Shown piece after piece: positions 34,435-60,735 of a DNA stretch of 64,000 bases. How positions within the stretch are numbered: position 1 is the stretch's first letter; the number at the start of each line of letters is the position of its first letter. Both the position numbers and the translations under genes were made by a program. The DNA is taken from positions 1,488,001 through 1,552,000 of the forward strand of contig NZ_OY735139.1 of assembly GCF_963457605.1 (NCBI RefSeq), given 5' to 3'. Source of the stretch: an uncultured Gellertiella sp. (GTDB lineage Bacteria; Pseudomonadota; Alphaproteobacteria; Rhizobiales; Rhizobiaceae). The notes beneath the pieces were generated by a model, which worked only from the letters and a program-made list of their open reading frames with translations, made no database searches and had not been told where the DNA came from.

Positions 34435-34487
34435 TACCCTTGGTGTCTGCTGCCATTTCAGGGTCGCCCCTCGAAGGAGAGAATGTC

Positions 34488-36227: not shown

Positions 36228-36278
36228 GCGCAAGAGAGTTTGCCTGGTTCACATTGAACCTGGCAGACTCTCTTGCGC
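36228..36278. repeat. Palindromic element, copy A (solo hairpin) between convergent operons
   Basis: A 51-nt near-perfect palindrome immediately after the TAA of paralogue 1. Outer arms GCGCAAGAGAG / CTCTCTTGCGC and inner arms CTGGTTC / GAACCTGG match the core hairpin of the element family at 38498, 51759, 52294, 59763 and 60222. It could act as a bidirectional terminator for the two operons. Confidence 0.85.
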
Positions 36279-36306
36279 CGTTCAACCTTGGCACTGTTTG
36301 ACAGCG

Positions 36307-38115
36307 TCAAAGCCTGAATACAGCTTCATCTCCTCCCGCACGCCGCTGCATTCTGACAGTGGTGCGATGGGCAGCGGAATAGGCGATACCCCATGCCATG
36401 AGCAGGAGGCACATTATCCATCCGAGCGGATGCACCTCAGGCCGATATTCCAAAAAGTAGGATCGACCATTTCGTGTCGGATTGCTTTGGTCGAATGGAG
36501 AGAAGTCAAGCGCATAGCGCTCCACCAGGGCAAATTTCCCGGCATAACCGCTGCCTGTCGCTGTGGATGGCATGGGCGTCAAAGGATTTCCGTTTTCCAA
36601 TAGCCGGACATTCTCATAGGCCGTGGCTGGCGGGCGTAGGATGCCTGAAAACGCCTGGGTCGGAACCAGAATCACAAAATTCGCATCCGTGTTGGAGCGG
36701 ACGGCGCTCGCATCAAGCGTATACCTCAAATTTTGACCTCGAAAATGAACCCCGACAAACACCGTTGCGAAGATGACCGCAGCAGCCGTTAACCAGACAT
36801 ACGTCACAAATCCATTTTGACACGAATGCGCTTCGGCTTCCTCTGCTTGCAACGCATAGCCAAGGCCCAGGGCAATCGGCGCGGCCAAGGCAGGCATGAG
36901 CAGATCGTGCGAAACCAGCATGGCTGCAATAACGCTCAGCGGAACGGCCACACTGCGACGCCCGCAGGCACCAAAGAGAAAAACAACCAGGAGGATGTCG
37001 AGGGCGACGCCGGGATAGCCGAACGCCACAGCAAAAAGGAGAAACATGTTATGGGGTGCAAGGCTGTATGCCGCTTCCAGCCCCTCTCCCATGAAAGGCG
37101 CGGTCTCAAAGGCGTAGAGTGATCGCATCAGCAAGGATTTGCGCGACATCACCGAATTGGTGCTGCCAGGTTCAGCAGTTGGTTTGGTTAAGTCCGCCTT
37201 TCCCAACGCCACTTGATCCTTGTTGGCCACAGACGTTGCAGTATCACCAGAGATTTGATGCCCTGTTTTGAGAACGGTCTCCAATGTCGCTTCAAGGGTG
37301 CCTAAGGATCCCTTCAAAGCGACCGGAAACCGATCATTCGACCAGACAACGCCAAGCAACCAAAGGCCCGAGAAACCAAGGAGTACAAACAGCCTGACGT
37401 CGGGCCAAATCAGCCGCATGATGTTTTTTGCCGATGCACGGTCGAAGGCAAAATGCAGGGAAAGGCTCAGAACCATAATGCTGAGGCTCAGGAGTAGGGT
37501 GGAGCGCGAAATGGTGAAGAAAATTGCGCTGCCGACCAATGCAAAAAAGGTGTACCGCCACCGCAGGGGAACTGCGGAACAGGTCGCGGCGCATCCCAGC
37601 ATCAGGCTGAGAGCAGCATCGTTCGGGTTCACGAGAAAGCCACCCGCCCGGCCAAGAGTGTTAGAGAATCCTACCGGGAATATAATGTCAACAAATATGA
37701 CACACGCATTAAAGACGACAACCCAAGCCCCCAGCCGCAGAGCAGACCTGTTGCGGGTAGCCGCGGATAGCACGGTAAACGCGAATATGAAGATCGTGAT
37801 GGCAATAAAGTTTTTCGAAATGCGAGTGACTGGATGGGCAAAAGTGAGGCCAAGCATGACAACGGTAGTCAGAGACAAATACACCAATCTCCGCCTCAGT
37901 CCGACATCCTGCATCAAAACGAGATGCAAGCCTGCAGCACCGAGTGCACACATCCAGAAACCAAAATAGACGATTCGCCACACAAAACCGGCATTCTCGA
38001 GAAGCGGGCTGAAGAACGGCAAAAAACCGGTCATAAAGGCCAGAACCATTACCGCAAGCATTCCGGCGGACGCCGCTTGAAACATCCGCACCGCAGTCAA
38101 TTTGTCAAATTTCAT
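36307..38115 (-). CDS. O-antigen ligase/polymerase family (Wzy_C) membrane protein, paralogue 2
   Basis: 602 residues, colinear with the gene at 34488 over its whole length: RSLYAFETAPFMGEGLEAAY, LAPHNMFLLFAVAFGYPG, LVSHDLLMPALAAP, then the C-terminal extracytoplasmic domain (LVPTQAFSGILR, LLENGNPLTPMPS) and a last span. It has an extra hydrophilic insert of about 30 residues before the Wzy_C motif (around residues 290-325). Base composition is visibly less GC-rich than its paralogue, suggesting a different origin. Upstream lies an AT-rich region with a palindrome. It is the last gene of the minus-strand glycan cluster but is separated from it by a 520-bp gap, so it may have its own promoter. 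Confidence 0.78.
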   Translation of the reverse strand: MKFDKLTAVRMFQAASAGMLAVMVLAFMTGFLPFFSPLLENAGFVWRIVYFGFWMCALGAAGLHLVLMQDVGLRRRLVYLSLTTVVMLGLTFAHPVTRISKNFIAITIFIFAFTVLSAATRNRSALRLGAWVVVFNACVIFVDIIFPVGFSNTLGRAGGFLVNPNDAALSLMLGCAATCSAVPLRWRYTFFALVGSAIFFTISRSTLLLSLSIMVLSLSLHFAFDRASAKNIMRLIWPDVRLFVLLGFSGLWLLGVVWSNDRFPVALKGSLGTLEATLETVLKTGHQISGDTATSVANKDQVALGKADLTKPTAEPGSTNSVMSRKSLLMRSLYAFETAPFMGEGLEAAYSLAPHNMFLLFAVAFGYPGVALDILLVVFLFGACGRRSVAVPLSVIAAMLVSHDLLMPALAAPIALGLGYALQAEEAEAHSCQNGFVTYVWLTAAAVIFATVFVGVHFRGQNLRYTLDASAVRSNTDANFVILVPTQAFSGILRPPATAYENVRLLENGNPLTPMPSTATGSGYAGKFALVERYALDFSPFDQSNPTRNGRSYFLEYRPEVHPLGWIMCLLLMAWGIAYSAAHRTTVRMQRRAGGDEAVFRL

Positions 38116-38497
38116 AGATGCATTTACTCCGTAAATGTAATTGTTTTATACAATTATTTCCTGCCTAGTGCATCTTCCGATAAATTGCAAAAAAATATTT
38201 TCTATCTTAAGTGTAGCTAATACGAATAATTCCGTCCGATTATTCGAATATAATTCCATTTTAATATGTTTTTATTGGCAGGCGCTGGAAAAGTATAGTT
38301 GCGACAATCCAGCGGAGAGTTCGCTGTCCCAGGCGTGCTTTGGACGATTACATGGAGATATCCAGACGTTCACAACAGCCAGCCGGCAAGCAGCGCCCGC
38401 CTGTCAGGCAAAGCCGCAGAGCGGCCTTCCCATTTAATCCTGCATGACGACGTCATATGCGGGGACCGAACATCAAGGTTCGCTCGCGGGTCTACAA
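38116..38497. other. AT-rich upstream region of ligase paralogue 2
   Basis: Strikingly AT-rich compared with the rest of the window, particularly 38116-38290. It holds a perfect palindrome at 38223-38246 and no convincing gene. Likely the promoter region of the gene ending at 36307. Confidence 0.6.
38223..38246. promoter_or_regulatory. Perfect inverted repeat upstream of ligase paralogue 2
   Basis: Arms CGAATAAT and ATTATTCG (8 bp) around an 8-bp spacer TCCGTCCG, 108 bp upstream of the start codon at 38115. Candidate operator. Confidence 0.4.
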
Positions 38498-38640
38498 GCA
38501 TCAGAGTCTGCCAGGTTCATACTGAACCAGACAGACTCTGATGCTCCTTGTTTCCGTTTGTATTTTCACTCCTGTGAGTCTGAGCGCTCAAGCATGTTTG
38601 AGCGGGAGAACCGGCTTCTACCTCTCCCTGACAAACTCTA
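38498..38640 (+). repeat. Palindromic element, copy B (long form)
   Basis: Core hairpin at 38498-38544 (GCATCAGAGTCTG / CAGACTCTGATGC), then a body with GTTTCCGTTTGT, TTTGAGCGGGAGAACCGG and the terminal repeat CCCTGACAAACTCTA ending at 38640. The final CTA is the reverse complement of the TAG stop of the minus-strand glycosyltransferase gene, so the element abuts that gene exactly. Confidence 0.85.
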
Positions 38641-39786
38641 GCCGTTTCCGGCAAGCACATCCTCGTACAGTTCCAGATGCCGTTCCGCGATGGCGGAGGC
38701 CTGAAAGCATTCCACGGCCAGCTTGCGGCCAGCTTCACCCATGCGGGACCTCAGGGGGGCATCGGCAAGCAGGGACTTGATGCCCCTTGCCAGGGAAACC
38801 GGATCCCGCACGGCGACAAGCACCCCCGATACGCCGGGAAGAATGACATCGCGACAGCCAGCCACATCGGTTGTCACCACCGGCTTTGCACAGGCGGCCG
38901 CCTCCTGGAGCACCTTGGGCATGCCTTCGCGATAGGAGGGAAGGACGACGATATCGGCCTGTCGCAAGGTCGCGGCCATGTCGGTACGCGGTCCCCATAT
39001 TTCGCAGATGCCCTGTCTTTGCCAGTCTGCCAGCTGGTCTGCCGAGACGGAGCTGGTATTATCAGGATCCACCGGACCAACAAGGACAAAGCGAGTGCCG
39101 GGGGAAAGGGATTCGTCAAGCTTGAGCAGCTGTGCCGCCTCGGCAAACTCGACGACCCCCTTGTCCTTCAGCAACCGCCCGGCCAGCATCACAATGGCAT
39201 TGTCCCGGGTGCCAACTGTCGGCTGCGGGCAAAACTGGTCGATATCGACGCCGGAGCCATGAATTAGGGTGAATTTTTCCGCAGGGAGGCCAGTCATCTC
39301 CTCCAGGAGGGCCTGGTCATCCCTGTTTTGCACCACCAGCCGAAGATTACGGTGTCCAAGTGCCGCCTTGTAAAGCCGTTCGACAAGCCACCGGCGAAGC
39401 CGGGCCCTATGGCCCTCCGCGACAAACACCGTTCCCAGCCCCGAAACCGCTGCAACCACACCCCGTGTTCTGGTCAGTCGGGCAACGATGCCCCCGATCA
39501 GCACGGGTTTGATCGTCACAAGATGGGCAATATCAGGCTTGAGCTGCGCTACAAGTTTGTACAGCGCCCGGAACTCCGTAAAAAGGGTGACCATTCCAGC
39601 CGCCCCACGCTTGATTGGCAGATCGTGGATGTGAAAGCCCATCCCCTGCAGGGCCGCTGCCTGATCGGTCATGCGGGCAGCGATATGCACCTCGTAACCA
39701 GCCTTTTGCGCGGCCACCGCAATGGGCAGCCGGTGCGAGACAAAGAACCAGTCAACATTGACGACAAAGAGTAACCTGCCTTTCAA
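38638..39786 (-). CDS. GT4-family glycosyltransferase
   Basis: 382 residues, two Rossmann-like domains (GT-B). The N-terminal acceptor domain contains NVDWFFVSHRLPIAVAAQ and PDIAHLVTIKPVLIGGI; the C-terminal nucleotide-sugar domain has VMLAGRLLKDKGVVEFAEAA, FVLVGPVD and the E-x7-E pattern in YREGMPKVLQEAAACAKPVV. It resembles PglA-type enzymes that extend undecaprenyl-pyrophosphate-linked acetamido sugars. Translation starts at TTG 39786, overlapping the asnB stop (TTGA). Its TAG stop is provided by the end of repeat copy B, so the C-terminus may have been trimmed by that insertion. Confidence 0.88.
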   Translation of the reverse strand: MKGRLLFVVNVDWFFVSHRLPIAVAAQKAGYEVHIAARMTDQAAALQGMGFHIHDLPIKRGAAGMVTLFTEFRALYKLVAQLKPDIAHLVTIKPVLIGGIVARLTRTRGVVAAVSGLGTVFVAEGHRARLRRWLVERLYKAALGHRNLRLVVQNRDDQALLEEMTGLPAEKFTLIHGSGVDIDQFCPQPTVGTRDNAIVMLAGRLLKDKGVVEFAEAAQLLKLDESLSPGTRFVLVGPVDPDNTSSVSADQLADWQRQGICEIWGPRTDMAATLRQADIVVLPSYREGMPKVLQEAAACAKPVVTTDVAGCRDVILPGVSGVLVAVRDPVSLARGIKSLLADAPLRSRMGEAGRKLAVECFQASAIAERHLELYEDVLAGNG

Positions 39787-41735: not shown

Positions 41736-41903
41736 TCTTCAAACACTACTTCCCATTGTTTAATGCATATACAGAAGTGCATTCGGCGATGCCATTTGGC
41801 GGCACAGGCCAGGGCCAGTTGCTCATGCGAGTCGGGGGCACCCCTAACATGCAGAGAAGGGAAGCGTCAATGCAACGCCGCGAAACGCGTTTGCCCGCCT
41901 CAT

Positions 41904-43067
41904 TCATCTGTCGGAACAGATCGACATCTGCCCGGCATAGAGGGCCAAATAGTGATCGCGCATGGTTTGCGGCGCATATTTTTGCCGGATGGCGTCGACC
42001 TGCTCCAGACGTTCCTCTGGTGTACGCGTCAGACCAAAGGCGCGTGAAAGCGCTGCGGCGATGTCATCCGGGGAATTGGGGGCAATCAACTGGCATCCGG
42101 CGATCCCTTCGACCGCTTCCACATTGCCGCCCACGCGCGTTGCGATGACAGGCAGGCCGGCATGCAGCATTTCCAGCAATGCATTCGAAAAGCCCTCCTC
42201 ATGCGAGGCCATCAATCCGATATCCATGCCGGCCAGAAGTTGCGGCACATCGCGACGCTGTCCCATCAGGAAAACCCTGTCCTGCAAATGTAGCTCGGCA
42301 ATCCTGGCGTTCAGGCTGTCGCCGATACCCCTGTCCTCCCCGATCAGGAACAACCGCAGACCCGGCAGGTCACCGGCAGTCAGGGCCATGGCCTCGATCA
42401 TTTCCGCATGGCCCTTGTAGGGGATGAGGTTTGCGACCGAGACGACGGCTTTGTCCTCCGGGGCAAGTCCCAATTCACGGCGCACCTTGTCCCGGACGTC
42501 CACTTCGAGGGGCGGGAGATCGATGCCATTGTAAATGACGACTATTTTCGCCGGATCCGCTGCGTCGCGAAGGATTGCGTCGCGGGCAACGGCCCGGGAA
42601 TTCGCCGTGATGTCATCGCTCATCCAGTTGGCAAGCCGGTCCATCGGGGCCCAGAAGCGATGCCTGTCCTGGTGTGTGCCGAGAGCGCGTCTTGAGGTAA
42701 CGATTCGGGGCACGCGGTTCAGCGCCCCCGCCAGCGCTATCATGAAATTGGTCAGGGGCAGAAAACCGTGCACCACGTCCGGACGCAAGTGCCGGGCCAG
42801 CGCGACAAGCCGCAGTTGTGCCCTCACAAGTCTGAGCAGCCGCTTTGCCCTGGAACCGCCGCCATGAAATCCGCCGGGGTGGACGATGATGCCCGCCTGC
42901 TCGAAACGGCTCTTCAATGGTCCCCGCCCATCCACGACGAAGAGATGCACCTCATGGCCAAGCTTGCGCATTTCGCAAGCCAGCATCAGCAACTGCCCTT
43001 CCGCACCGCCGATCTGCAGACCGCCAATACTGTAAAGAATAACCATTTTTCTTTGAATCGAGCTCAT
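41904..43067 (-). CDS. GT4-family glycosyltransferase
   Basis: 387 residues. VILYSIGGLQIGGAEGQLLM is the GT4 N-terminal loop, RRALGTHQDRHRFW and NSRAVARDAILRD lie in the linker region, and the donor domain has SVANLIPYKGHAEMIEAM, RLFLIGEDRG, and SHEEGFSNALLEMLHAGLPV (E-x7-E). ATG 43067 overlaps the preceding gene's stop (ATGA), so it is coupled to it. Acts on a lipid-linked acceptor at the cytoplasmic face; donor and linkage unknown. Confidence 0.88.
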   Translation of the reverse strand: MSSIQRKMVILYSIGGLQIGGAEGQLLMLACEMRKLGHEVHLFVVDGRGPLKSRFEQAGIIVHPGGFHGGGSRAKRLLRLVRAQLRLVALARHLRPDVVHGFLPLTNFMIALAGALNRVPRIVTSRRALGTHQDRHRFWAPMDRLANWMSDDITANSRAVARDAILRDAADPAKIVVIYNGIDLPPLEVDVRDKVRRELGLAPEDKAVVSVANLIPYKGHAEMIEAMALTAGDLPGLRLFLIGEDRGIGDSLNARIAELHLQDRVFLMGQRRDVPQLLAGMDIGLMASHEEGFSNALLEMLHAGLPVIATRVGGNVEAVEGIAGCQLIAPNSPDDIAAALSRAFGLTRTPEERLEQVDAIRQKYAPQTMRDHYLALYAGQMSICSDR

Positions 43068-44799: not shown

Positions 44800-45008
44800 G
44801 TGGCCACTCCTTCGGCAGATCGCATTCCGACAGTTCGGCAGCCTATAGCAAGGCCGCCGAAAGGATGCAAACAGGTCGGTCGGTTGACAGGTTCGCAAAG
44901 CAACACGCCGCCACAGGCCCGAATACGCGTTGCGCCGAATTCCGAACGCAAAAGCCGTTAAACCGGACCTGTCAACCTTGAGCCAACAGATCGCAAAACC
45001 ACCAGGCC

Positions 45009-49828: not shown

Positions 49829-49837
49829 CAACAGGCT

Positions 49838-51682
49838 CTATTTCAGCGCCCTGAGCGCGTTGAGGATCACCGCGACATCGATCACTTCCTGGGTCAGCGC
49901 CCCTTCCACCGGCGGCAGATAGCCGAAACTTGCCAGTGCCATCGCCGCCAGCGACAGGCCAAGACCCGCAACAACGCTCTGCCAGGCAATCGCCCGGCTG
50001 CGTCGTGCAATCGCCATCGCCTTGACCAGAGGTGCCAGTTCATCGACCAGCAGGACCACGCCTGCGGCCTCCGACGACGAGGCAGTGCCATGGGCCCCCA
50101 TGGCAACACCGACATCGGCAGCCGCCAGCGCCGGGGCATCATTGACCCCGTCGCCCACCATCATCACCGGACCATTCGCACGTTCGTTCTTGACGGCGCT
50201 TACCTTGGCATCCGGCGTGAGATCGCCGAGCACCAGGTCGAATCCAAGCTCCCTGCCGACAGCACCGGCAATATCGCTCCGGTCCCCTGATGCCATCACC
50301 AGACGGCTGACGCCCGCCTGCCTGAAATCAACCAGCATCTGTCTGGCATCACCGCGAATCTGGTCGGCAAGCAGGATGATCCCCGCCATCCTGCCATCGA
50401 TGCCGACCGCCACACTGATCGCTCCGGGATCATTTTGCCGGAGCGGGTCACCGGAGCCGGCGGCACCGGTCTCGGCGATGACGAAAGCAATGCTGCCGAC
50501 CACGACCCGGTGACCATCCACGGCTCCGGAAATCCCGGTTCCCGGCTGTTCCACCACGGCGGTGGGGGCCGACAGGGTCAGCCCCCGCGCCTCAGCCGCC
50601 CGAATAAGGGCTGTCGCCACCACATGGCCGGAGGCCTGATCGAGACTGGCTGCCGCCTGCAGAACCCGGGCTTCGGCAAATCCGTTCTCTGTCCGGATGG
50701 CGGTCAACGCCGCCTGCCCGTGGGTGATGGTACCGGTCTTGTCGAGGATGACGGTGCGCACCCGCGACATCGTCTCCAGCACGCCGCCACCCTTGACCAG
50801 TACACCCATCCGCGCCGTGCGCGACATGCCCGAGATCAGCGCCACGGGGACGGCGAGAATCAGCGGACAGGGCGTCGCAACGACAAGCACCGAGAGCATG
50901 CGGATCGGATCCTGCGTCACCACCCATGTGGCCGCGGCAATCGCCACCGTCAGCCCCAGAAAGCCGATGGCATAGCGATCCGCCATGCGCACCATCGGGG
51001 CCTTGCTGGATTGCGCCGCCTCGACCAGACGAACGATACCGGCATAGGTACTTTCGCAAGCAGGCCGGCTGGCAACCATTTCGAAGGCGGCACCGGCGGA
51101 GGCCGAGCCGCTGAGGATCTCCCCGCCCTTGCCGATGGTGCGGGGCAAGGCCTCGCCTGTGAGCGCCGACAGATCGAGCACGGCAACATCGCTCGCCACA
51201 TGGCCATCGACCGGCAGCACATCCCCCTGGCGAATGAGCAGCCGGTCACCCGGACTGATCGCCGCAATCGGCACGGATTTCAGCCCGTCGCCCTCAAACC
51301 GCATGGCAGTCTGTGCAACGCGCCCCATCAGCGCCGTCATTTCCTTCCTGGCCCGGCCCTGGGCGAAATCCTCCAGCAACTGGCCGCCCGCATACATCAT
51401 CGCCACGACATTGGCGGCCAGCGGCTGGCCGAAGGCAAGGGCTGCCGTCATCGACAACGCCGCCACGATGTCGAGCCCGATATCCCCCTTGCGCAGGGAG
51501 ACGGCGATCTGCACGAAAAGACCCAGCAACACCGGCGCCGGCGCCACCGACCATACCAGGCCTGCCTCGGCGGGCTGGTCAAGCCAGGCCAGCATTGCCC
51601 CGAGCCCAAGGCCCAGAGCCGCAAAACCGATCAGAATTCTGGATTGATGAACGCGCAAGAATGCGCCGATGCTTTGCGGCAT
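49838..51682 (-). CDS. P1B-type heavy-metal ATPase, CPL variant without N-terminal metal-binding domain
   Basis: 614 residues. Phosphorylation site VILDKTGTITHG, actuator SALTGEALP, and hinge MMVGDGVNDAPALAAADVG are all intact. The metal-site helix reads VVATPCPLILAVPVALISGM, so the usual CPC/CPH/SPC motif is CPL. There is no HMA or His-rich N-terminal domain before TM1 (about residue 15). Ion selectivity cannot be assigned. ATG 51682 was chosen over an upstream frame start at 51736. Copy C of the palindromic element lies 77 bp upstream. It neighbours BON and YflT stress genes. Confidence 0.88.
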   Translation of the reverse strand: MPQSIGAFLRVHQSRILIGFAALGLGLGAMLAWLDQPAEAGLVWSVAPAPVLLGLFVQIAVSLRKGDIGLDIVAALSMTAALAFGQPLAANVVAMMYAGGQLLEDFAQGRARKEMTALMGRVAQTAMRFEGDGLKSVPIAAISPGDRLLIRQGDVLPVDGHVASDVAVLDLSALTGEALPRTIGKGGEILSGSASAGAAFEMVASRPACESTYAGIVRLVEAAQSSKAPMVRMADRYAIGFLGLTVAIAAATWVVTQDPIRMLSVLVVATPCPLILAVPVALISGMSRTARMGVLVKGGGVLETMSRVRTVILDKTGTITHGQAALTAIRTENGFAEARVLQAAASLDQASGHVVATALIRAAEARGLTLSAPTAVVEQPGTGISGAVDGHRVVVGSIAFVIAETGAAGSGDPLRQNDPGAISVAVGIDGRMAGIILLADQIRGDARQMLVDFRQAGVSRLVMASGDRSDIAGAVGRELGFDLVLGDLTPDAKVSAVKNERANGPVMMVGDGVNDAPALAAADVGVAMGAHGTASSSEAAGVVLLVDELAPLVKAMAIARRSRAIAWQSVVAGLGLSLAAMALASFGYLPPVEGALTQEVIDVAVILNALRALK

Positions 51683-51758
51683 TGTTGTTTCCCCCTGTCC
51701 TGTCGGACGAGACCCGGCCTGTGCCGGGCGAACCACGCCTCTGGTGTCCCGCAGACCT

Positions 51759-51878
51759 GGAGTCTGTCAGGTTCAGATAGAACCTGACAGACTCCAAGCA
51801 AATTTGTTTTCGTTTGTCTTTTCGGGAAAACGAGTTTGAGCGGGAAAACCGGATTCCACTTTTCCCTGACAAACTCTA
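51759..51878 (+). repeat. Palindromic element, copy C (long form, 120 bp)
   Basis: Core hairpin 51759-51797 (TGGAGTCTGTCAGGTTC / GAACCTGACAGACTCCA), then GTTTTCGTTTGTC, GGGAAAACCGGATTCC and terminal TTTCCCTGACAAACTCTA. It has about 17 extra bases (CGAGTTTGAGCGGGAAA) compared with copies D and F. It is intergenic, between the BON fragment and the P-type ATPase gene. Confidence 0.88.
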
Positions 51879-52004
51879 TTGTGGCAAAGCCAGCCGCATC
51901 AAGCCACCAGCCGGGCCGATGGCATATCGCCACAGCCCTGCGGGGGGGCGTAGGGCAAAACCGGCCCCGATGACCGGGCAGGATCATCGGGGCCGGCTGT
52001 CGGT

Positions 52005-52403
52005 TCAGAGAACCGTAATATCGTTCTGGACGCCGGTCGCACCGGGGGCCGCCCAGGCGGTGGCGCTTGCCAGCTGCCGGTCAGACCAGGAATGAGCCGT
52101 ACCGGTCAGATGGACATGTCCGCCCCTTGCCGTGACGCTGATGGTTGCCGGATCGAACCTTGAGCGATGCAAGGCCTGCCTGATGCTGTCGGCAATGTCT
52201 CCGGCATTGGCCCTCGGTTTCAGGCTGATCTGGTTGGAAACCCCGACAACGCCGTGAAGCGCCCTGATATCGCGCTCCGCCGCATCCTTCTGATAGAGTT
52301 TGTCAGGGAAAGGTGGAATCCGGTTTTCCCGAAAAGACAAACGAAAACAAAGAGAATTAGAGTTTGTCTGGTTCAGTCTGAACCTGACAAACTCTAGTGC
52401 CAT
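52005..52403 (-). pseudogene. 3' part of disrupted BON-domain gene (third BON domain), reading out of the inserted element
   Basis: 132 codons. The first 37 residues are encoded by the inserted element D (ending FPDKLY); from YQKDAAERDIRALHGVVGVS onward it is the authentic third BON domain (ISLKPRANAGDIADSIRQAL, ARGGHVHLTGTAHSWSDRQL). An ATG at 52403 overlaps the TAG that ends the 5' part by 10 bases, so re-initiation could in principle yield a separate polypeptide. Removing the 101-bp insertion joins it in frame to the 5' part. Confidence 0.75.
52294..52396 (-). mobile_element. Palindromic element, copy D, inserted at TA inside a BON-domain gene
   Basis: 103 bp counting both TA ends. Perfect 14-bp terminal inverted repeats: TAGAGTTTGTCAGG on the left and CCTGACAAACTCTA on the right. 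The core hairpin occupies the right 40 bp (GTCTGGTTC / GAACCTGAC). The target TA is duplicated: the flanking coding sequence joins as CAC TAT CAG (His-Tyr-Gln). Deleting 101 bp leaves 648 nt, an exact 216-codon frame including the stop. Confidence 0.92.
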
Positions 52404-52753
52404 TCCACCTCGCCGGTCAGCGTGACCCAGCCGTTTTCCACCTTGATCCGAACGACGTCATCGGGGACTTCAACGTCCCAGTCCAGACGGTTGAGCGCAG
52501 CGGCCGCTATGTCCTCATCCGTCCGCCTGACATCGAAGGCGAGCTTTACCTCAAGTTCCTCGGCGACGGCCTTGACGCCCCTGACACGCCGGGCGGCCTT
52601 TTCGGCAATGGATTTTTCCCTGTAGGTATCGACATGACCGGTGAGCGTCACCACGCCATCATTGGCAGCAACGCCGATATGCGCCGCCTTGATGCTGGGT
52701 TCCCAGTTGAGCTCCGCAATTACGGCTGTTTGCAGTTGATCGTCATTGGACAT
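52394..52753 (-). pseudogene. 5' part of BON-domain (OsmY-like) stress protein, truncated by element insertion
   Basis: 119 residues containing two BON domains: AVIAELNWEPSIKAAHIGVA, VVTLTGHVDTYREKSIAEKA for the first and AALNRLDWDVEVPDDVVRIK, NGWVTLTGEVEWH for the second. BON proteins bind phospholipid or peptidoglycan surfaces and are commonly stress-induced periplasmic or cytoplasmic proteins; no signal peptide is visible here. The TAG stop is created by the inserted element D. The intact ancestor would have had 215 residues with three BON domains. Start ATG 52753 is preceded by GAGGAA. The truncated protein may still be made. Confidence 0.85.
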
Positions 52754-52839
52754 CACATGTTCCTCGGTTTGGCGACCGGATGACAGACAGCACCTCATGT
52801 GCCATCGACATCACCGGTCGCAGCGCAGAAGTCCGTCGG

Positions 52840-53394
52840 TCAGACCGTCGCCAGCGCCCTGGCGGCCCCGGTTCCCGCGGGGCCAGCGTGAACATCGAGT
52901 GTGGACGGGCCGGTGGCATGCAGAATGGCTCTCGCCCGTTCAATGTCTTCGGTCGTGCCATGCGCCATGACCAGGAAACCATCGGTCCTGATCGCGGTCT
53001 CATAGGCAATGACGCTGTCCTTCGGGACGCCGAGACTGTAGAGCGCTGCCGCCAGACCGCTGAGACCCCCGACGATGACGGCACCTTCCAGCGCGGAGAC
53101 GACCATTGCCGCCAGGGTTCCAAGCACGATGACCTGACCGACAAGCGGAATGGTCAGCATGGCACCCCCGAAAAACAGGCCCCAGAATCCGCCCCAGAAC
53201 GCCCCCCTGCTGCCCCAGAAGGCGACATGGTCGCCGACAGTATAGAAACCGACCACCTTTTCCTCGGTATGATAGCCTTTGCCGACCAGGCTGAGCTGCT
53301 TCATGCCGAATCCGGCATTGGTCAGGTTCTTGATGGCTGTTTCGGCGGAATCGTGGTCGGGAAAGACCGCGATGACGGAATCGGTGATGCTCAT
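52840..53394 (-). CDS. General-stress (YflT/GSP17M-like) domain protein with hydrophobic core
   Basis: 184 residues. N-terminal YflT-type ferredoxin-like domain (SVIAVFPDHDSAETAIKNLT, NAGFGMKQLSLVGKGYHTEE) followed by a Gly-rich hydrophobic centre (WGGFWGLFFGGAMLTIPLVG, VIVLGTLAAMVVSALEGAVI) and a second ferredoxin-like half (TDGFLVMAHGTTEDIERARA). Similar proteins are induced by stress; molecular role unknown. Start ATG 53394 was preferred over a frame start 26 codons upstream. It lies 86 bp upstream of the BON gene on the same strand, so the two may be co-transcribed. Confidence 0.75.
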   Translation of the reverse strand: MSITDSVIAVFPDHDSAETAIKNLTNAGFGMKQLSLVGKGYHTEEKVVGFYTVGDHVAFWGSRGAFWGGFWGLFFGGAMLTIPLVGQVIVLGTLAAMVVSALEGAVIVGGLSGLAAALYSLGVPKDSVIAYETAIRTDGFLVMAHGTTEDIERARAILHATGPSTLDVHAGPAGTGAARALATV

Positions 53395-53789
53395 TTTTCG
53401 TATTCCCTGATGTGAATAGTGTTGTCGTCGCCTGCAATCCGCAACGCGGAAAACGCCGCAATCCTTCCGCAAGGCGTCGCAGTACAGGATTTATAGGCCC
53501 GCGCTCCTCCCGACCGTCAGGATCGGAAACTACTCAGCGTGAGGATGGGAGCCTGAAGTCTGCGGGCCCCTGCCCGATCAACACCGCAACGCACAGCTCT
53601 GCGTAGATTCCGAGGCTTCCGGCACAATCAATGAAGACTAAGCTTGGCTCTGACGCAATTGCACCTCCATGGTTGTCTTGCCGCAGTGGCAGCACTCCCT
53701 GGTGCAGACGGGAATATCTTCATGGACACGTTCACCGGCACCACGTCCCGCAGCCCCGCCAATCGCCATCCGGCGGGCGGGGTCAGGAC
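53395..53789. other. Divergent intergenic region upstream of the arc operon (395 bp)
   Basis: Contains the promoters of the stress gene (minus) and the arc operon (plus). I looked for FNR/Anr-type TTGAT-N4-ATCAA sites and found none. No gene is recognised. Confidence 0.5.
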
Positions 53790-55279
53790 ATGACCACCCT
53801 CAGCGACCCGATGCCGCCGCCTCCCGGCTCGCCCACCGCCGCGATCCCGGTGCGGGGGACCGCGTCCCGCAAGCTCGGCCTCGGTGCCCTGACTGCCATC
53901 GTCATCGGATCGATGATCGGCTCTGGCGTGTTCAGCCTGCCGCAGAACATGGCACAGGGTGCAGGGCCGCTGGCCATCCTGATCGGCTGGGGCATAACCG
54001 GCATTGGCATTCTGGCGCTGGCACTGGTTTACCGCAATCTGTCGATGCGCATTCCCGCGCTCAATGCCGGACCCTATGCCTATGCGAAAGCCGGATTTGG
54101 TCCGTTCATCGGCTTCAACAGCGCCTGGGGCTACTGGATCTCTGCCTGGCTCGGCAATGTCTCCTATGCCGTGGTGATGTTCAGTGCCCTGTCCTGGTTC
54201 CTGCCGGTGTTTGGTGAAGGCAACAGCTGGCAGGCCATAGCGGGGGCCTCGGTGGTGCTCTGGTCGATCCATGCCCTCACCCTGCTTGGCGTGCGGCAGG
54301 CGGCCTTTGTCAATCTGGTCACCACGATTGCCAAGGTGGCCCCCATCGTCCTGTTCATCGGTATCGTCGTGGTCGCGTTCAGGATCGACATCTTTTCGCC
54401 TGGCTGGAAGGGCACGCAGGACATTGCCCTCGGTCCGATCCTCACCCAGGTGAAAAGCACGATGCTGGTGACCCTCTGGGTGTTCATCGGCATTGAAGGT
54501 GCCAGCGTGATTTCAGCCGATGCGGCACGGCGCAAGGATATCGGCACCGCCACCATCCTTGGTTTCCTCGCCTGCCTCGGCATCTATGCACTGGTTTCGC
54601 TGCTGTCGCTGGGCATTCTCTCCCGGCCCGAACTTGCCGCCCTGAAAAACCCGTCGATGGCGGGCGTGCTTGAACATCTGGTGGGTCGCTGGGGTGCCAT
54701 CGTCATCAATGTCGCCGTGGTGATCTCGGTGCTCGGGGCCTTCCTCAGCTGGACAATGCTGGCCGCAGAAATTCCCCATGCCGCAGCCCGCGACGGAACG
54801 ATGCCGGGCTTCCTCGGTCGGGAAAACCGCAATGGCGCGCCTGTCGTCTCGCTGTGGATCACCAATCTGCTGGTCCAGCTCTTCCTGCTGGTCACCTATT
54901 ATGCCAGCAGTACCTATCAGGCGCTGTTTTCCATCGCCTCCGTCGCCATTCTGGTGCCCTATGTGTTTTCCGGGGCCTATGCGCTGAAGCTCAGCCTGTC
55001 CGGGGAAACCTACCGGGCGGGCGAGAGCCGGACGGCAGATCTCGTGACCAGCGGCATCGCCACCCTCTACGGTATCTGGCTGGTCTATGCAGCGGGTCCA
55101 ACCTATCTGCTGATGGCCGCACTGCTCTATGCCCCGGCATCATGATCTACATCTGGGCACGCCGCGAGGCAGGCAAGCAGAGCTTCACCGCGCTTGAAGC
55201 GGTGCTCGCCATCTGCCTTGTCCTCTCCGGCATGCTTGCCGCCTGTCTGATCTGGAACGGCACGATCAGCCCCTTCTGA
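53790..55279 (+). pseudogene. arcD: Arginine:ornithine antiporter ArcD (APC family), frameshifted near the C-terminus
   Basis: The uninterrupted frame gives 451 residues (stop at 55145), with TMs typical of APC exchangers: LTAIVIGSMIGSGVFSLPQN (TM1 binding loop GSG), FIGFNSAWGYWISAWLGNVS, WVFIGIEGASVISADAARRK. The last membrane span continues in another frame as PGIMIYIWARREAGKQSFTA then [20 protein letters not shown], ending at 55279. The two join at GCCCCGGCATC (55131-55141), where one G appears to be missing. The truncated form lacks the last span; a sequencing error is possible. It is the first gene of the arginine deiminase operon and would import arginine while exporting ornithine. Confidence 0.88.
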
Positions 55280-55293
55280 ACAAGGACGAATTC

Positions 55294-56517
55294 ATGACAA
55301 ACCTGGGCGCTTACTCAGAGGTCGGCCGCCTGCGCGAAGTGCTGGTGCATCGCCCCGATCTCAGCCTGCAACGGCTGACACCCGGCAATTGCAAGGACCT
55401 GCTGTTTGACGATGTGCTGTGGGTGAAGAAGGCGCGGCAGGAGCACGACATCTTTGCCGATACATTGCGCGAGCGCGGCGTCATCGTCCATGATTTCGGC
55501 ACCATGCTGGCCGAAACCCTGGCATTGCCGGAGGCCCGGACATGGTTGCTCGACCGCCGGATCCAGTCCGCGACGGTTGGTGAGGATCTGGTCGACGAGA
55601 TGGGATCCTGGCTGATGGGCATGCCCGCCATCGATCTCGCACGCGTGCTGATCGGCGGCATTGCCCACGCGGAACTCCCCTTTCGCCCCACGGGCCTGAT
55701 CGGCCAGACCATGGAGGCGAGAGACTTCGTTCTGCCGCCCCTGCCCAATCAGCTGTTCACCCGCGACAGCTCCTGCTGGATCTATGGCGGGGTCACGATC
55801 AATCCGATGTACTGGCCGGCACGACGCCCGGAGGCGATCAATCTCGCCGCAGTCTATCGCTTCCATCCACGCTTTGCAGATGCGGCCTTCGAGACCTGGT
55901 GGGGGGATGTCGATGCGCCGCCCGCAATAGCAACGCTTGAAGGCGGCGATGTCATGCCGCTGGCCGATGGCATCGTGCTGATCGGCATGGGAGAGCGCAC
56001 CACCCCGCAGGCCGTGGCGAGCCTTGCCGCGCGCCTGTTTGCCGGCGGACAGGCGACAAGGGTGATCGCCGCCCTGATGCCGCGCGACCGTTCCTTCATG
56101 CATCTCGACACGATCTTCACCTTCTGCGACCGGGATCTGGTCACGGTCTATCCCGAGATCGTCGACCGGATCAGGACCTTTTCGCTGCGCCCCGGCAAGG
56201 GCCCGTCTGGCGTCGGGATCACGGCCGAAACCACCTCCTTCCTCACCGTCGTGCAACAGGCCCTCGGCCTTGAAAAGCTGCGCGTCATCGCAACCGGTGG
56301 CGATGGTTATGAGGCGGAGCGCGAGCAGTGGGATGACGGCAACAATCTTCTCGCCATCGAGCCGGGCGTGGTGATCGGCTACGACCGGAATGTCTACACC
56401 AACACCGTTTTGCGCAAGGCCGGCATCGAGGTCATCACGGTCTCCGGCTCCGAGCTTGGCCGGGGCCGGGGTGGCAGCCACTGCATGTCCTGCCCCATTG
56501 CCCGCGACCCGACCTGA
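55294..56517 (+). CDS. arcA: Arginine deiminase
   Basis: 407 residues, full length. Converts arginine to citrulline and ammonia. Catalytic Cys in [14 protein letters not shown], catalytic His and Asp in [13 protein letters not shown], substrate Asp/Glu region in [11 protein letters not shown], and N-terminal [14 protein letters not shown]. Position 14 bp after the arcD frame and 21 bp before arcB. In the deiminase pathway the citrulline is passed to ArcB, and ATP is finally made by ArcC, giving energy under anoxia and raising pH. Confidence 0.97.
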
Positions 56518-56538
56518 CAGAAACCGGAAGGACCACCC

Positions 56539-57540
56539 ATGCCCATCAATCTCAGGGGTCGAAGCATTCTGACGCTGGATGATCTCGCCCCGACCGAAAT
56601 CCGCTACCTCCTCAAGCTCGCCGCCGACCTGAAGGCGGCCAAACAGGCAGGGACAGAACAGCCGCAACTGACGCGCCGCAACATCGCGCTGATCTTCGAA
56701 AAGGACTCGACCCGCACCCGCACCGGGTTCGAGGTTGCGGCCTATGACCAGGGGGCACATGTCACCTGGCTCGGCCCCTCCGGCAGCCACATCGGCCACA
56801 AGGAATCCATGCGCGATACCGCCCGGGTTCTGGGGCGGATGTATGACGCCATCGAATATCGCGGCTTCGGACAGAGGAATGTCGAGATACTGGCCGCCAA
56901 TGCCGGAGTGCCGGTCTATAACGGACTGACGGATGAGACCCATCCAACCCAGACGCTGGCCGATTTCATGACCATGCGCGAATTCACCCACAAGCATCTC
57001 TGCGATATCAAACTCGCCTTTCTCGGCGATGGCCGTGACAATGTCGGGCTGTCGCTGGCCATCGGAGCCGCCAAGGTCGGCATCAGCCTGACCATCGCCT
57101 CGCCACGCGCGTTCTGGCCGGACCAGGCCTTTGTCGACCATGTCGGTCAGGTGGCCCGCACCACGGGCGGCACATTCGCCCTCACCGAGAATGTCGGGGA
57201 GGCCGTGAAGGGCGCCGATTTCATCTATACCGATGTCTGGCTTTCGATGGGCGAGAGCGAGAGTGAATGGCCGGACCGGATCGGCAAGCTTGTCCCCTAT
57301 CGCGTCACATCCGACGTGATGGCCCTGACGGGAAACCCTTTTGCCAAATTCATGCATTGCCTGCCGGCCTTTCACAATGCCGAAACGGAAGTGGGGGCCG
57401 CCCTGAAACGCGATCTCGGCATCGACTGCATGGAAGTGACCGACGAGGTGTTCGAGTCCCCTGCATCCATCGTCTTTGACCAGGCGGAAAACCGGATGCA
57501 CACGATCAAGGCCATCCTTGTCGCGACGATTGCGGGTTGA
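56539..57540 (+). CDS. arcB: Ornithine carbamoyltransferase, catabolic
   Basis: 333 residues. Carbamoyl-phosphate site [20 protein letters not shown], then [20 protein letters not shown] and [16 protein letters not shown]; ornithine-binding [16 protein letters not shown]. It splits citrulline to ornithine and carbamoyl phosphate in this context. Genome position directly after arcA and overlapping or abutting arcC supports the catabolic role rather than arginine biosynthesis. Confidence 0.96.
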
Positions 57541-57545
57541 CGGCG

Positions 57546-58484
57546 ATGCGGATCGTGGTCGCGCTAGGCGGAAACGCGCTGCTGAAGCGCGGAGAACCGA
57601 TGACGGAAAATCAGCAGCGCCTGAATATCGCCACAGCGGCCCGCTCGCTCGCCGACCTGATCCTGGCGGGACATTCGCTGGTGATCACCCATGGCAATGG
57701 CCCGCAGATCGGCCTTCTGGCGCTGCAGGCGGCATCCGGCCCCGGGGAGGCTGCCTATCCGCTCGACATTCTCGGCGCAGAGACCGACGGGATGATCGGT
57801 TACATGATCGAACAACAGTTGCGCAACGCCCTGCCAGCAGGCAGGCAACTCGCGACAGTGCTGACCCAGATCCGGGTCGATGCGGCGGATCCGGCCTTTG
57901 CCAAGCCGACAAAGCCCATCGGTCCTGGCTATGACAAGGCCGGTGCCAGCCGGCTTCAGGACGAAAGGGGCTGGCAATTTGCCGGAGACGGCGACCGTAT
58001 GCGCCGCGTGGTGCCCTCGCCCCTGCCGGTCGAAATCATCGATCTCCCGGTGATCCGGCTTCTGGTCGACAACAATATCGTTGTCATCTGTGCCGGCGGC
58101 GGAGGCATTCCGGTGGTCCGGCAGGCCGAAGGGCAGATCAAGGGGATCGAGGCCGTCATCGACAAGGATCGCGCCAGTGCCCTTCTGGCCGTAGGGCTCC
58201 ATGCCGACAGGTTGCTGCTGCTGACCGATGTCGATGCCGTCTATCTCGATTATGGTACCCCCACAGCGCGCGCCGTGACACGGGCCGGTGCCGAATCCGT
58301 CGCGGCGGGCACGTTTGCCGCCGGGTCCATGGGTCCGAAAGTGGAGGCGGCAGCCCAGTTTGCCTCCGCCACCGGACACCCCGCCGCCATCGGCCGTCTG
58401 GAAGACGCCCTTGCCCTGCTGAATGGCAAAGCCGGCACCAGGATTGAAGCCGGCAGCGCCGCCTGGGAATTTGCCGCCGGTTGA
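57546..58484 (+). CDS. arcC: Carbamate kinase
   Basis: 312 residues. Transfers phosphate from carbamoyl phosphate to ADP, releasing CO2 and ammonia. N-terminal MRIVVALGGNALLKRGEPMT, VITHGNGPQIGLLALQ, TDGMIGYMIEQQL, VICAGGGGIPVV and AGSMGPKVEAAAQFA are all carbamate-kinase signatures. ATG 57546 is used; a TTG at 57537 overlaps the arcB stop and is also in frame. Last gene of arcDABC. Confidence 0.95.
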   Translation: MRIVVALGGNALLKRGEPMTENQQRLNIATAARSLADLILAGHSLVITHGNGPQIGLLALQAASGPGEAAYPLDILGAETDGMIGYMIEQQLRNALPAGRQLATVLTQIRVDAADPAFAKPTKPIGPGYDKAGASRLQDERGWQFAGDGDRMRRVVPSPLPVEIIDLPVIRLLVDNNIVVICAGGGGIPVVRQAEGQIKGIEAVIDKDRASALLAVGLHADRLLLLTDVDAVYLDYGTPTARAVTRAGAESVAAGTFAAGSMGPKVEAAAQFASATGHPAAIGRLEDALALLNGKAGTRIEAGSAAWEFAAG

Positions 58485-58678
58485 GACGGCAAGGCCTCCT
58501 TCGGACGTCCGACAGGACGGGCGGCACTGTCGCAGCGCAAGAAAAGCGGTTGACAGTCCAGCACCTTCTCCACAAAAAGCGGTGACGAAATCGCGGTATC
58601 GAGGCGATGTCAACGCAACGCCGTGACGGGGCGGACCTGGCTATTCCAGTTGTTCCGCACACGAAGGAGCCTTACACA

Positions 58679-59692
58679 GTGAAAATTCTTCTGACAGGTG
58701 CTGCAGGTTTCATCGGCATGCACACGAGCATCCGCCTGCTGGAACGCGGCGACACCGTGATCGGTGTCGACAACCTCAATGACTACTACGATGTATCCCT
58801 CAAGGAGGCCCGGCTGGCGCGGCTGAAGGCCTATCCGAATTTCACCTTCGTCAAGATGTCGGTGGAAGACAAGGACGGCATGGCGGCGCTGTTTGCGGGC
58901 GAGAAACCGCAACGGGTCATTCATCTCGCAGCCCAGGCCGGTGTCCGCTACTCGCTGCAGAACCCGCATGCCTATATCGATGCCAATATCCAGGGCTTCC
59001 TCAACATTCTGGAAGGCTGCCGCCACAATGGTGTGGAATCGCTTGCCTATGCGAGCTCCTCCTCGGTCTATGGCGGCAATACCGCCCTGCCCTTCAGCGA
59101 GCATCACAATATCGATCACCCCGTCAGCCTCTACGCCGCCACCAAGAAGGCAAACGAGCTGATGGCCCATACCTACAGCCACCTGTTCCGGCTGCCGACC
59201 ACGGGCCTGCGCTTCTTCACGGTCTACGGCCCCTGGGGCCGACCTGACATGGCCCTGTTCCTGTTTACCAAGGCCATCATCGAAGGCCGGGCGATCGATG
59301 TCTTCAACAATGGCCAGATGGTGCGCGATTTCACCTTTGTCGACGACATTGTCGAAGGCGTGATCCGGGTCAATGACCGGCCCGCCGAGCCCGATCCCGA
59401 TTTCGATCCCGCCAATCCGGACCCCGCCACCAGCAATGCGCCCTATCGGGTGTTCAACATCGGCAACAACCAGCCGACCCAACTGATGGATTACATTGCA
59501 GCGCTGGAAACCTCGCTTGGCCGCACGGCCGAGAAGAATTTCCTGCCGATGCAGCCCGGCGACGTCCCGGCCACCGCCGCCGATACGACGGAACTGGAGA
59601 AATGGGTGGATTTCAACCCCAATACGCCGGTCACCGTTGGCGTCCAGCGCTTTGTCGACTGGTACCGGATGTTCTACCGGATCAATTCCTGA
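58679..59692 (+). CDS. lpsL: UDP-glucuronate 4-epimerase (LpsL-like SDR)
   Basis: 337 residues. GTG start at 58679 with GAAGGAG 9 bp upstream. N-terminal Rossmann motif [20 protein letters not shown], then [20 protein letters not shown], catalytic Ser-Tyr-Lys with Tyr-Lys in [17 protein letters not shown], and [20 protein letters not shown]. The DNLNDYYDV and GRPDMALF motifs identify UDP-GlcA to UDP-GalA epimerases of the LpsL/Gla group, which make galacturonate for rhizobial lipopolysaccharide core. It stands alone but belongs functionally with the glycan locus. Confidence 0.92.
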
Positions 59693-59762
59693 GATCCGGG
59701 CCTGCCTGCGGGGAGCAGTTCGAGGCGTGGCGCAGCCGTCCTGAGTTGCGCCGCAACGCTCT

Positions 59763-59800
59763 GGAGCCTGTCTGCTTCACATTCAACCAGACAGGCTCTA
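59763..59800. repeat. Palindromic element, copy E (solo hairpin)
   Basis: GAGCCTGTCTG / CAGACAGGCTC arms around CTTCACATTCAAC, ending in TA at 59799-59800. It lies between convergent lpsL and lysE, and its CTA supplies the TAG stop of the lysE remnant. Also a plausible terminator for lpsL. Confidence 0.8.
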
Positions 59801-60491
59801 TCTCAAAAGCATCCAGATTCCGACGGCGAGAAACGAGAGCCCATAGACAAGATAGGCGGCGCGACCGTCCAGATAGCGGGTCAGTGCCTTGCCCGCAAAG
59901 GCCCAGGCATAAAAGGCCACCATTTTGTTGAGGGTAAAGATCACGGTGATGAACATGAGACGCGTCGCGGACGCGGCACTGCCCATAAAGCCTGAAAACA
60001 TCGCTGCAATGATGGCGTAAGCCTTCGGGCTGGACAGCATCAGGATTGCGCCCACCGTAAATGAAGGGTGGGCCGCACCCTTGCCCGCGCTTTCCGTTAC
60101 GGCCGAGAAGCGGTAAGCCGCAGCCAGGCAGACCCAGGCGATCCAGAGCATATAGCCTGCACTCAGCACCTTCAGTGCAAGGCTGACAGTCGGATCGGCA
60201 AGAAAACTCACCGACAGCCCATAGAGTTTGTCAGGGAAAAGTGGAATCCGGTTTTCCCGAAAAGACAAACGAAAACAAAGGGAATTAGAGTCTGTCTGGT
60301 TCAATATGAACCTGACAGACTCTAGCCGATGGCAAAGGTCACGATGAAGGTCGCGACATGATAGACGAGCAATGCCGGCCAGATGGCCGGCACACCATGC
60401 AGGGCACCGTTGACGGCGAAAAAGAGTTTCCGGGGCCCGGCGAGTAGGCGAGCGGCAGAAGAAAAATGAGGAGTGCGATGGCTTCGGTCAT
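59798..60491 (-). pseudogene. LysE/RhtB-family exporter, disrupted by element F and a frameshift
   Basis: The 5' part (60491 to 60325) reads MTEAIALLIFLLPLAYSPGP, the LysE opening, then loses frame by one base within 60418-60432 (CTCTTTTTCGCC), after which the other frame continues as AVNGALHGVPAIWPALLVYH. Element F interrupts it at a Gly-TAT-Gly site (60222-60324). The 3' part continues YGLSVSFLADPTVSLALKVL, LSSPKAYAIIAAMFSGFMGS to a final LAVGIWMLLR. Excising 101 bp leaves 593 nt, one short of 198 codons, consistent with the single-base loss. Two independent lesions make it a pseudogene with fair confidence; the natural substrate of the family is amino acids. Confidence 0.88.
60222..60324 (-). 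mobile_element. Palindromic element, copy F, inserted at TA inside lysE
   Basis: 103 bp including both TA ends, the same length as copy D and differing from it at only a few positions. Ends TAGAGTTTGTCAGG and CCTGACAGACTCTA (one mismatch). The core hairpin (CTGGTTC / GAACCTG) is at the right end. Flanking codons rejoin as GGC TAT GGG (Gly-Tyr-Gly). Confidence 0.92.
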
Positions 60492-60735
60492 GACTCAGGT
60501 CTTGCCTAACATTAGGACTGAGTCAATTACACACTTGTATAATTTTACACCCGCAAGATATGCTGTCACCGTCCTGCAATGCCTCCAGAACTATTCCACC
60601 GCCCAGGGGAGGGAGGGCGGTGCCGATGAATTTTGATGAAAGGCGGGTTGATTCAAGTCCACTCACACCTTGCCAGCCGGACGGTTTCTGCCAGAAATGG
60701 GCACAAGCACCGCACCGCATCAGGAAGACGCGACC

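Follow-up and report, generated by a model that had tools for sequence, protein, structure and literature searches.

A family of about 100 tiny non-coding repeats in a Gellertiella genome, very probably mobilised by a resident IS630-type transposase and often sited in gene stop codons

Six short palindromic repeats lie in a 64,000-nucleotide stretch of the genome of an uncultured Gellertiella sp. (the window), and they raise the question of what kind of DNA they are, how they spread and what they do to the genes around them. A sequence-only reading had listed six copies, here called A to F; all were found, with slightly refined limits. Element D (52294-52396, + strand) is a 103-bp unit with perfect terminal repeats, and the 14-bp terminal inverted repeat given in that reading, TAGAGTTTGTCAGG / CCTGACAAACTCTA, is correct for this copy. 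Element F (60222-60324, + strand) is also a 103-bp unit, element B (38502-38640, - strand) is a 139-bp unit with extra palindromic modules and a hairpin stem that extends into the flank, and element C (51758-51878, - strand) is a 121-bp unit whose hairpin ends in CTCCA/TGGAG, not CTCTA/TAGAG. A and E had been described as hairpins alone, which holds: A (36228-36278, unstranded) is a bare hairpin with a 16-bp core stem, seven pairs in unique flank and no TA ends, and E (59762-59800, unstranded) is a degenerate bare hairpin. Element A begins directly after the TAA of the gene at 34440-36227.

The six repeats are members of a family of about 100 tiny non-coding mobile DNAs. Across the 4.17-Mb genome, a hairpin pattern allowing at most three mismatches gave 131 forward and 132 reverse matches, which are the same palindromes on both strands, and a left-arm pattern gave 79 matches; the reversed control of the first pattern and the control of the second each gave 0. 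The standard unit runs from a left arm through a variable linker to a right hairpin; its outer ends are TAGAGTYTGTCAGG and CCTGACARACTCTA, and its 103 bp is the modal length (56 of 101 full copies). Bare hairpins are a minority: in the stretches fetched, 101 of 125 hairpins belong to arm-linker-hairpin units and 24 fall outside them, some of these 24 being weak chance matches to a permissive hairpin pattern. The counts exclude another 34 rows with a left arm only, among which are IS ends and inner arms. In being short, non-coding and numerous (about 131 hairpins and 79 left arms), and in ending in inverted repeats, the units agree with an IS630-mobilised MITE of the RUP kind. Rfam gave no match within the window at gathering scores. 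Literature searches covering the family itself, the sequences of its ends and core, IS630 MITEs in Rhizobium/Agrobacterium, RIME1, GANTC repeats and MITEs with stop codons returned no description of it among the matches listed (open-licence papers, judged by title and the opening of the abstract). Methylation control through GANTC in the ends was considered and dropped, the left end usually being GAGTTTG, without GANTC.

The sequence-only reading had suggested looking for an IS630-family transposase with ends starting TAGAG. We identified five such copies elsewhere in the genome, with ends TAGAGTCTGTCAG...CTGACAGACTCTA, each of about 1053 bp and with a pairwise identity of at least 99.6%. Their proteins contain HTH and DDE_3 domains (NF033545). 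At both ends of all five copies the same 13 bases, TAGAGTCTGTCAG, are identical to those of the MITE, and these approximately 13 end bases are all that the IS and the MITE have in common. Three of the five IS copies abut family members, with a TA in common. The transposase is spread over two overlapping frames whose meeting point is a run of eight A, found in all five copies, and thus requires frameshifting; two relatives annotated as single genes (943 and 946 bases) are consistent with frameshifting, though no proof of it. The same ends recur on IS630 relatives from a Rhizobium and from an A. vitis plasmid, and these carry AACCTGACAGACTCTA, as the hairpin arm does.

The target of the family is mostly YTAR, with the TA duplicated. 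The TA duplications that the sequence-only reading expected of a MITE are seen as TA at both ends of 79 of the 101 full copies, with TA absent from one or both ends in the other 22. In the 79 TA/TA copies, the base before the TA is C in 48, T in 24, A in 6 and G in 1, and the base after it is G in 49 and A in 30; nine of the 94 restored sites described below are not YTAR. Empty sites, a further expectation of that reading, were found as paralogous empties of one copy and as one empty allele of a related A. vitis copy. When the copy at C2:1367237 is removed, the resulting junction matches a repeat that is present empty three times (97-98% identity over 157-159 bp). The related copy, at an adenine deaminase site of Agrobacterium vitis, is present in two records and missing from two others; the empty A. 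vitis allele has a native TAG exactly at the insertion site, as does R. ruizarguesonis. Another A. vitis site is filled in all 10 of the A. vitis-group records found. Family matches were present in none of four same-genus genomes (0/4); these are 69-75% identical to the present genome in long matches, so no within-species empty alleles were seen and none for the window copies.

REP/BIME-type repeats, which a RAYT-like (Y1/TnpA_REP) enzyme moves, are likewise palindromic, high in copy number and mostly intergenic, and such units were the alternative named by the sequence-only reading. This alternative fits less well with discrete units that have TA duplications, IS630-type ends, an IS630 partner and precise empty sites, and we consider it highly improbable. 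The reading of the repeats as Tc1/IS630-mobilised MITEs, by comparison, is supported by the IS630 ends, the TA duplications and the empty sites. Judged from sequence comparison, the family very probably consists of non-autonomous MITEs that are moved in trans by the IS630/Tc1-mariner-type transposase of the five resident IS copies and that accumulate in stop codons. The transposase would recognise the common end TAGAGTYTGTCAG, excise the unit and reinsert it, mostly at YTAR, with the TA duplicated. Each outer end, read inwards, spells TAG, so a unit inserted at the TA within a terminal TAA or TAG would give the gene a TAG stop in the original position. Copies are enriched in stop codons and, to a lesser degree, between converging genes; this enrichment at gene ends may come from selection, from targeting or from both. 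The resident IS630 is presumably the active mover, and transposition is presumably ongoing.

Family members often sit exactly in gene stop codons and restore the stop themselves, such that the gene can stay whole. By the gene calls made for this analysis, 37 of the 101 full copies provide an adjacent called gene with its stop codon, through the right end in 20 and the left in 17, without orientation bias; 7 of the 37 adjoin another family member or an IS, where the joined codon is uninformative. Because no gene that an element interrupts can be called intact, elements were removed and genes re-called before sites were classed, which took the 101 copies to 94 restored sites (five tandem neighbours merged, two units without either TA dropped). 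Thirty-three of these sites are gene stop codons and 10 lie inside called genes. In an unbiased 860-kb sample, YTAR sites at stop codons were occupied in 11 of 64 cases (Fisher for stop codons p 4e-6), while the remaining classes gave 3/35 (convergent), 7/298 (tandem), 1/141 (divergent) and 5/198 (intragenic). The 709 unoccupied YTAR sites of the sample include 53 stop-codon and 193 intragenic sites. Beyond this genus, stop-codon supply was found in 9 of 11 annotated records examined that have a TAGAGTYTGTCAG-type end.

The window holds both kinds of outcome. The left-arm end of element B supplies the TAG stop of a glycosyltransferase gene (38638-39786, - strand), and the CTCTA end of element E supplies that of a LysE-type ORF (59798-60304, - strand). 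Element D interrupts a three-BON-domain gene (52005-52798, - strand) at a Tyr codon (TAT), splitting it with two BON domains before the element and one after, and its TAG truncates the gene. Element F lies in the LysE-type transporter gene, likewise at a Tyr codon (TAT), and introduces a premature stop; joining its flanks gives a continuous LysE-like frame. An uninterrupted BON protein was found in one genome of another family (43% identity, residues 4-214), whereas the four same-genus genomes gave no match. The stop supply by B and E and the gene cutting with premature stops by D and F are points that the sequence-only reading had not made.

A 3'-end bias and paired hairpins could also be explained if the repeats were retained for a function, as transcription terminators or as stabilisers of mRNA 3' ends. 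Their clustering at stop codons and in convergent gaps agrees with such a role, as do strong predicted folds (z -5.8 to -9.6) and an alignment of 68 distinct hairpins in which 88.7% of hairpin cells are paired and both-side changes occur at 9 of 16 pairs (35 cells). Slid controls of this alignment, however, also had both-side changes, at 5-8 pairs, though in 9-15 cells only. Either end of the element supplies the stop about equally, some copies break genes, the four same-genus genomes lack any match, and a scan of 51000-61000 gave no terminator-like site at C-F. Intrinsic termination as the main function was dropped on account of the missing orientation bias and the absence of such sites at C-F, and conservation for a 3'-end role in general seems to us improbable.

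Another explanation keeps the same MITE and mover but has the transposase or a host factor target gene 3' ends, stop codons or pre-existing palindromes, with selection playing a minor part. The difference in filling between stop-codon and tandem YTAR sites (11/64 vs 7/298) would follow directly from such targeting, and intragenic sites (5/198) are not emptier than tandem ones, contrary to pure selection. In two bare hairpins, moreover, the palindrome continues into the flanks for 6 and 8 bp past the first pair, but 22 of the 24 have at most three further flank pairs, near the shuffled expectation. Against targeting, convergent sites outside stop codons are raised too, albeit on few cases (3/35). 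The 10 intragenic sites among the 94 restored genome-wide also compare poorly with the 193 among the 709 unoccupied YTAR of the sample, which makes some intragenic loss likely. Targeting as the main cause is possible, although we think it rather unlikely. For MITEs accumulating in stop codons after IS630-mediated transposition, ends that spell a stop codon would represent a simple low-harm strategy, one that lets a transposon sit in stop codons (11 of 64 suitable sites in 860 kb).

Units with other ends suggest a wider grouping. The end type TAGAGTYTGTCAG belongs to the window family and has a matching IS in the same genome. The end type TAGAGCRTTTTY was observed in Bradyrhizobium, Xanthobacter and Asticcacaulis; an IS630 with a TAGAGCATTTTCC end is present in genome G038 and in Polymorphobacter, the TAGAGCRTTTTY units being recorded from other genomes. 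The end type TAGAGCATGATCC was found in G038, with its left half in Mesorhizobium, and has only TAGAGCAT in common with the G038 IS. The prediction that an IS630 in G038 would end in TAGAGCATGATCC was not borne out as stated, the IS there having TAGAGCATTTTCC. There is perhaps an even chance that two-armed alphaproteobacterial repeats, probably including CIR (Caulobacter CcrM-associated intergenic repeats, reportedly of Chen and Shapiro 2003), form one MITE superfamily, which would have kept its core (AAGTGGANNCCGG arm, A-rich linker), would vary at its ends to match different IS630 subfamilies and would settle in stop codons because TAG ends rewrite the stop. The variable linker by the hairpin may be an imprint of former flanks, made through hairpin template switching. 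At least four further linker-flank pairs were found in 7 of the 101 full copies (shuffled mean 1.2, maximum 5); the pairing is weaker in other species (2/40 vs a null maximum of 2).

Several known systems invite comparison. RIME1 (Rhizobium-specific intergenic mosaic element; Osteras 1995) is said to be about 108 bp long with two palindromes. Papers that cite it describe a rhizobial intergenic mosaic repeat, and by that description it resembles the present family. ISY100 is inserted into TA by an IS630-family enzyme, with the TA duplicated, according to excerpts of PMC2170065; this is an autonomous element, in contrast to the gene-less units here, yet TA insertion and duplication are common to both. 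RUP (repeat unit of pneumococcus) is in excerpts of PMC3049150 and PMC2229807 a repeat of about 107 bp in about 110 copies, proposed to be mobilised by IS630-Spn1. It resembles our family in size, in copy number, in the likeness of its ends to a resident IS630-family element, in its TA target and in sometimes breaking genes on insertion (PMC3049150, PMC2229807). Compared by description, RUP differs in its host, and the two-arm structure, variable linker and added palindromic modules are features of the units here; so is stop-codon enrichment, which those excerpts do not report for RUP (PMC3049150, PMC2229807). CIR is described in excerpts of PMC2229807 as a repeat of about 110 bp, abundant in alphaproteobacteria, with two arms and a linker, GANTC at the terminal loop and TA at the termini (Table 1 there); it is said to be absent from genes, and its mobility is left unexplained. 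Element F likewise folds as two arms and a linker, with GAATC in the loop of the first arm, whereas the minimum-energy fold of element D pairs the two ends instead of forming two arms, and GGAAACC variants lack GANTC at the loop. An Asticcacaulis plasmid carries a unit of the same layout. In contrast to CIR as described, the present family has terminal inverted repeats, an IS630 partner and insertions in genes (D and F, and 10 of 94 restored sites). On these descriptions, the closest kin would be RUP by mechanism and CIR by anatomy. The family thereby offers, for a type of alphaproteobacterial repeat whose mobility the excerpted review left unsettled (PMC2229807), a concrete candidate mover (IS630, YTAR, TA duplication).

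All six family copies (A-F) that the sequence-only reading had placed in the window are present there. The window occupies C2:1488001-1552000 in a genome of two contigs and 4,165,720 bases. Across the whole genome, a hairpin pattern gave 131 forward and 132 reverse matches, identical palindromes being read on both strands, and a left-arm pattern gave 79, with zero matches to the control patterns for either. Units were extracted by script from about 1.2 Mb, comprising an unbiased part (860 kb including the window) and a part around listed matches; the part of it within C2:1290001-1950000 includes 10,000 masked bases (N). Full units numbered 101 and bare hairpins 24, a few of the weaker hairpins being chance matches. 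A further 34 matches showed the left arm only, and these include inner arms and IS ends. Full units measure 103 bp in 56 cases, 121 bp in 12, 139 bp in 5 and 160 bp in 5, and the longer ones carry extra palindromes, either CGCTCAAACTTGTTTGAG-type units or the arm loop ACACGCAAACGACGTTTTGCGTTTGG.

The full unit has the left end TAGAGTTTGTCAGG, a first arm of the form GTTTGTC.GGGAAAAGTGGAATCCGGTTTTCCC....GACAAAC, an A-rich linker whose final 5-8 bases differ among subfamilies, and a right hairpin (AGAGTCTGTCTGGTTC-loop-GAACCTGACAGACTCT); the unit's right end is the outer arm of this hairpin. The predicted fold of copy F (60222-60324) shows two arms and the linker, and in that of copy D (52294-52396) the two ends pair with each other. 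Among 68 distinct hairpins, stem positions pair in 88.7% of cells, compared with 33-45% after shifting the partner by 1 or 2 positions, and both-side changes affect 9 of 16 pairs (35 cells), versus 5-8 pairs (9-15 cells) in the slid controls; pair 11/27 is a T.T mismatch in most. GANTC (CcrM) sites occur as GAATC in the arm loop of D, F and many other full units, and as GAGTC/GACTC in many hairpin arms, IS ends included. Such sites could possibly tie transposition to replication.

A PF13358 search of the genome returned 11 IS630-type matches, none of them in the window. The sequence-only reading had suggested looking for an IS630 element with matching ends, and one was found: L033-L037, the proposed mover, are five copies of a single element (pairwise identity at least 99.6%; 1053 bp in L036, at L036:976-2028) with ends TAGAGTCTGTCAG and CTGACAGACTCTA. 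The transposase is spread over two overlapping frames, which correspond to the N- and C-terminal portions of the IS630 model NF033545 and join at a run of eight A that is kept in 5/5 copies. Relatives on plasmids of Rhizobium sp. N324 and A. vitis F2/5 have identical ends and are annotated with single IS630 transposase genes (943 and 946 bases), which suggests that the transposase is made by regular frameshift. In three of the five copies, the IS shares a TA with an adjoining family member. A second IS630-type group (L031, L032, L038-L040; C2:1558709, 1768429, 589810, 1163788 and 3381232) is >99% identical; its members begin with TAAAGYRYGTCG on the left, and the complete ones have GACATGCTTTA on the right.

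The main insertion target reads YTAR, with TA duplicated: among 79 full copies bounded by TA on either side, 72 have C or T as the preceding base, and all 79 have G or A as the following one. Removal of the copy at C2:1367237 produced a 157-159-bp match across the junction at three other loci (97-98% identity); other cross-junction matches were self or family sequences and were left out of the empty-site count. With D removed, the joined flanks encode an unbroken three-BON protein, reading ...EWHYQKDAAE... at the junction, of which one genome of another family has an uninterrupted homologue (43% identity). With F removed, they give an unbroken LysE-like frame. A coding frame crosses the joined flanks at 5 of 85 TA/TA elements versus 115 of 633 control YTAR sites, in a test that failed to detect F. 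Another family of palindromic repeats, whose ends resemble TAGTGGAATTTACGAATTTGACATTCG and which has 18 genomic matches at ≤3 mismatches (C2:416817, 1143562, 3917934 and others), offers a CTAG landing site to both the window family and the IS.

With genes called by a home-made codon-usage caller, an adjacent gene takes its TAG stop from the unit in 37 of the 101 full units. Joining the flanks of these gives the codon TAG in 22, TAA in 12 and TAT in 3 (D among them); this codon is less informative in the 7 of the 37 that adjoin another family member or the IS and in the six that have no TA at the far end. For a fair test, elements were removed in silico, keeping one TA and merging tandem neighbours, and genes were re-called. 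The 94 restored sites, 85 of them YTAR, fall at stop codons (33), in tandem (25), convergent (18) and divergent (7) intergenic positions, inside genes (10) and at an edge (1). Within the unbiased 860 kb, occupancy is 11/64 for stop codons, 3/35 for convergent, 7/298 for tandem, 1/141 for divergent and 5/198 for intragenic sites, with stop codons enriched by Fisher test (odds 8.5, p 4e-6). In the window, the stops provided by B and E are terminal for their genes, and those provided by D and F are premature. The TAG put back by the element end accounts for the ability of insertions at stop codons to persist. A live alternative to such selection is that gene ends are actively targeted; the sampled intragenic occupancy, not lower than the tandem one, speaks for it, whereas the overall under-representation of intragenic sites (10/94 restored versus 193/709 unoccupied YTAR sites) argues against targeting alone.

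Stop codons are supplied in other genomes as well. Among 11 annotated records with the window end type, a non-random choice with ten from a 30-record set and one from a separate search, a coding sequence ends at the element's TAG in nine (H1, H7, H8, H9, H13, H16, H20, H22 and H61) and not in H3 or H6. Of four annotated units with other end types, those in Mesorhizobium H69 and Xanthobacter H152 supply a stop and those in H58 and H155 do not; a further such record, H67, has no gene annotated at the unit. At the adenine deaminase copy of A. vitis F2/5, two equal-length records are filled, and CP056049 (strain CG78) and CP056044, again of equal length, lack the element and align there as one unbroken block (82.6%). 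The deaminase gene of CG78 and of Rhizobium ruizarguesonis has a TAG stop at the exact element site, and the DNA directly past the stop is weakly conserved.

Some stems, those of window copies A and B among others, run on for 4-8 pairs into unique flank or linker (further cases at C2:1897393, 847037 and 1938589 and C1:154320). Linker-flank pairing of at least 4 pairs beyond the TA pair occurs in 7 of 101 full units, where 2000 shuffles gave a mean of 1.2 and at most 5. Two of the 24 bare hairpins have 6 and 8 further flank pairs, a count reached by 69 of 2000 shuffles. In other species the linker-flank figure is 2/40, equal to the null maximum of 2. The extended pairing would be explained by hairpin template switching, and selection might also account for it; the proposed movement of the family as a MITE by IS630 does not require it.

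The unit was matched in 90 of 394 genomes of the host's taxonomic family (E≤1e-3; many over the core only) and the IS in 155 of 394, mostly partially; none of the four same-genus genomes searched matched the unit. Exact-pattern matches in named genomes come from Agrobacterium vitis, Allorhizobium, Rhizobium, Shinella and MAGs, including two stretches from one Caulobacterales MAG, and the named genomes with exact left-arm copies are nearly all Rhizobiaceae, the family in which the host is accordingly placed. The plasmids NZ_CP084753.1 and NZ_CP084754.1 have 19 and 18 family places; their source, Roseateles sp. XES5 (UNVERIFIED_ORG), is labelled a betaproteobacterium and is probably a mislabelled Rhizobiaceae. 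A related arm core and linker also occur in units with other ends: TAGAGCATGATCC in another family of the order and TAGAGCRTTTTY in Bradyrhizobium, Xanthobacter and Asticcacaulis, and Mesorhizobium has the left half of a unit with other ends. IS630 elements with a TAGAGCATTTTCC end occur in G038, a genome from another family of the order, and in Polymorphobacter. A pairing of unit end types with IS630 end types is only suggestive, because these IS630 elements and the TAGAGCRTTTTY-ended units were seen in different genomes.

Among known repeats, RUP as outlined in its source has a way of life of the same kind as that of the window family. CIR, the mobility of which is in need of explanation according to what the review PMC2229807 says of it, resembles the window family in layout, going by its description there only.
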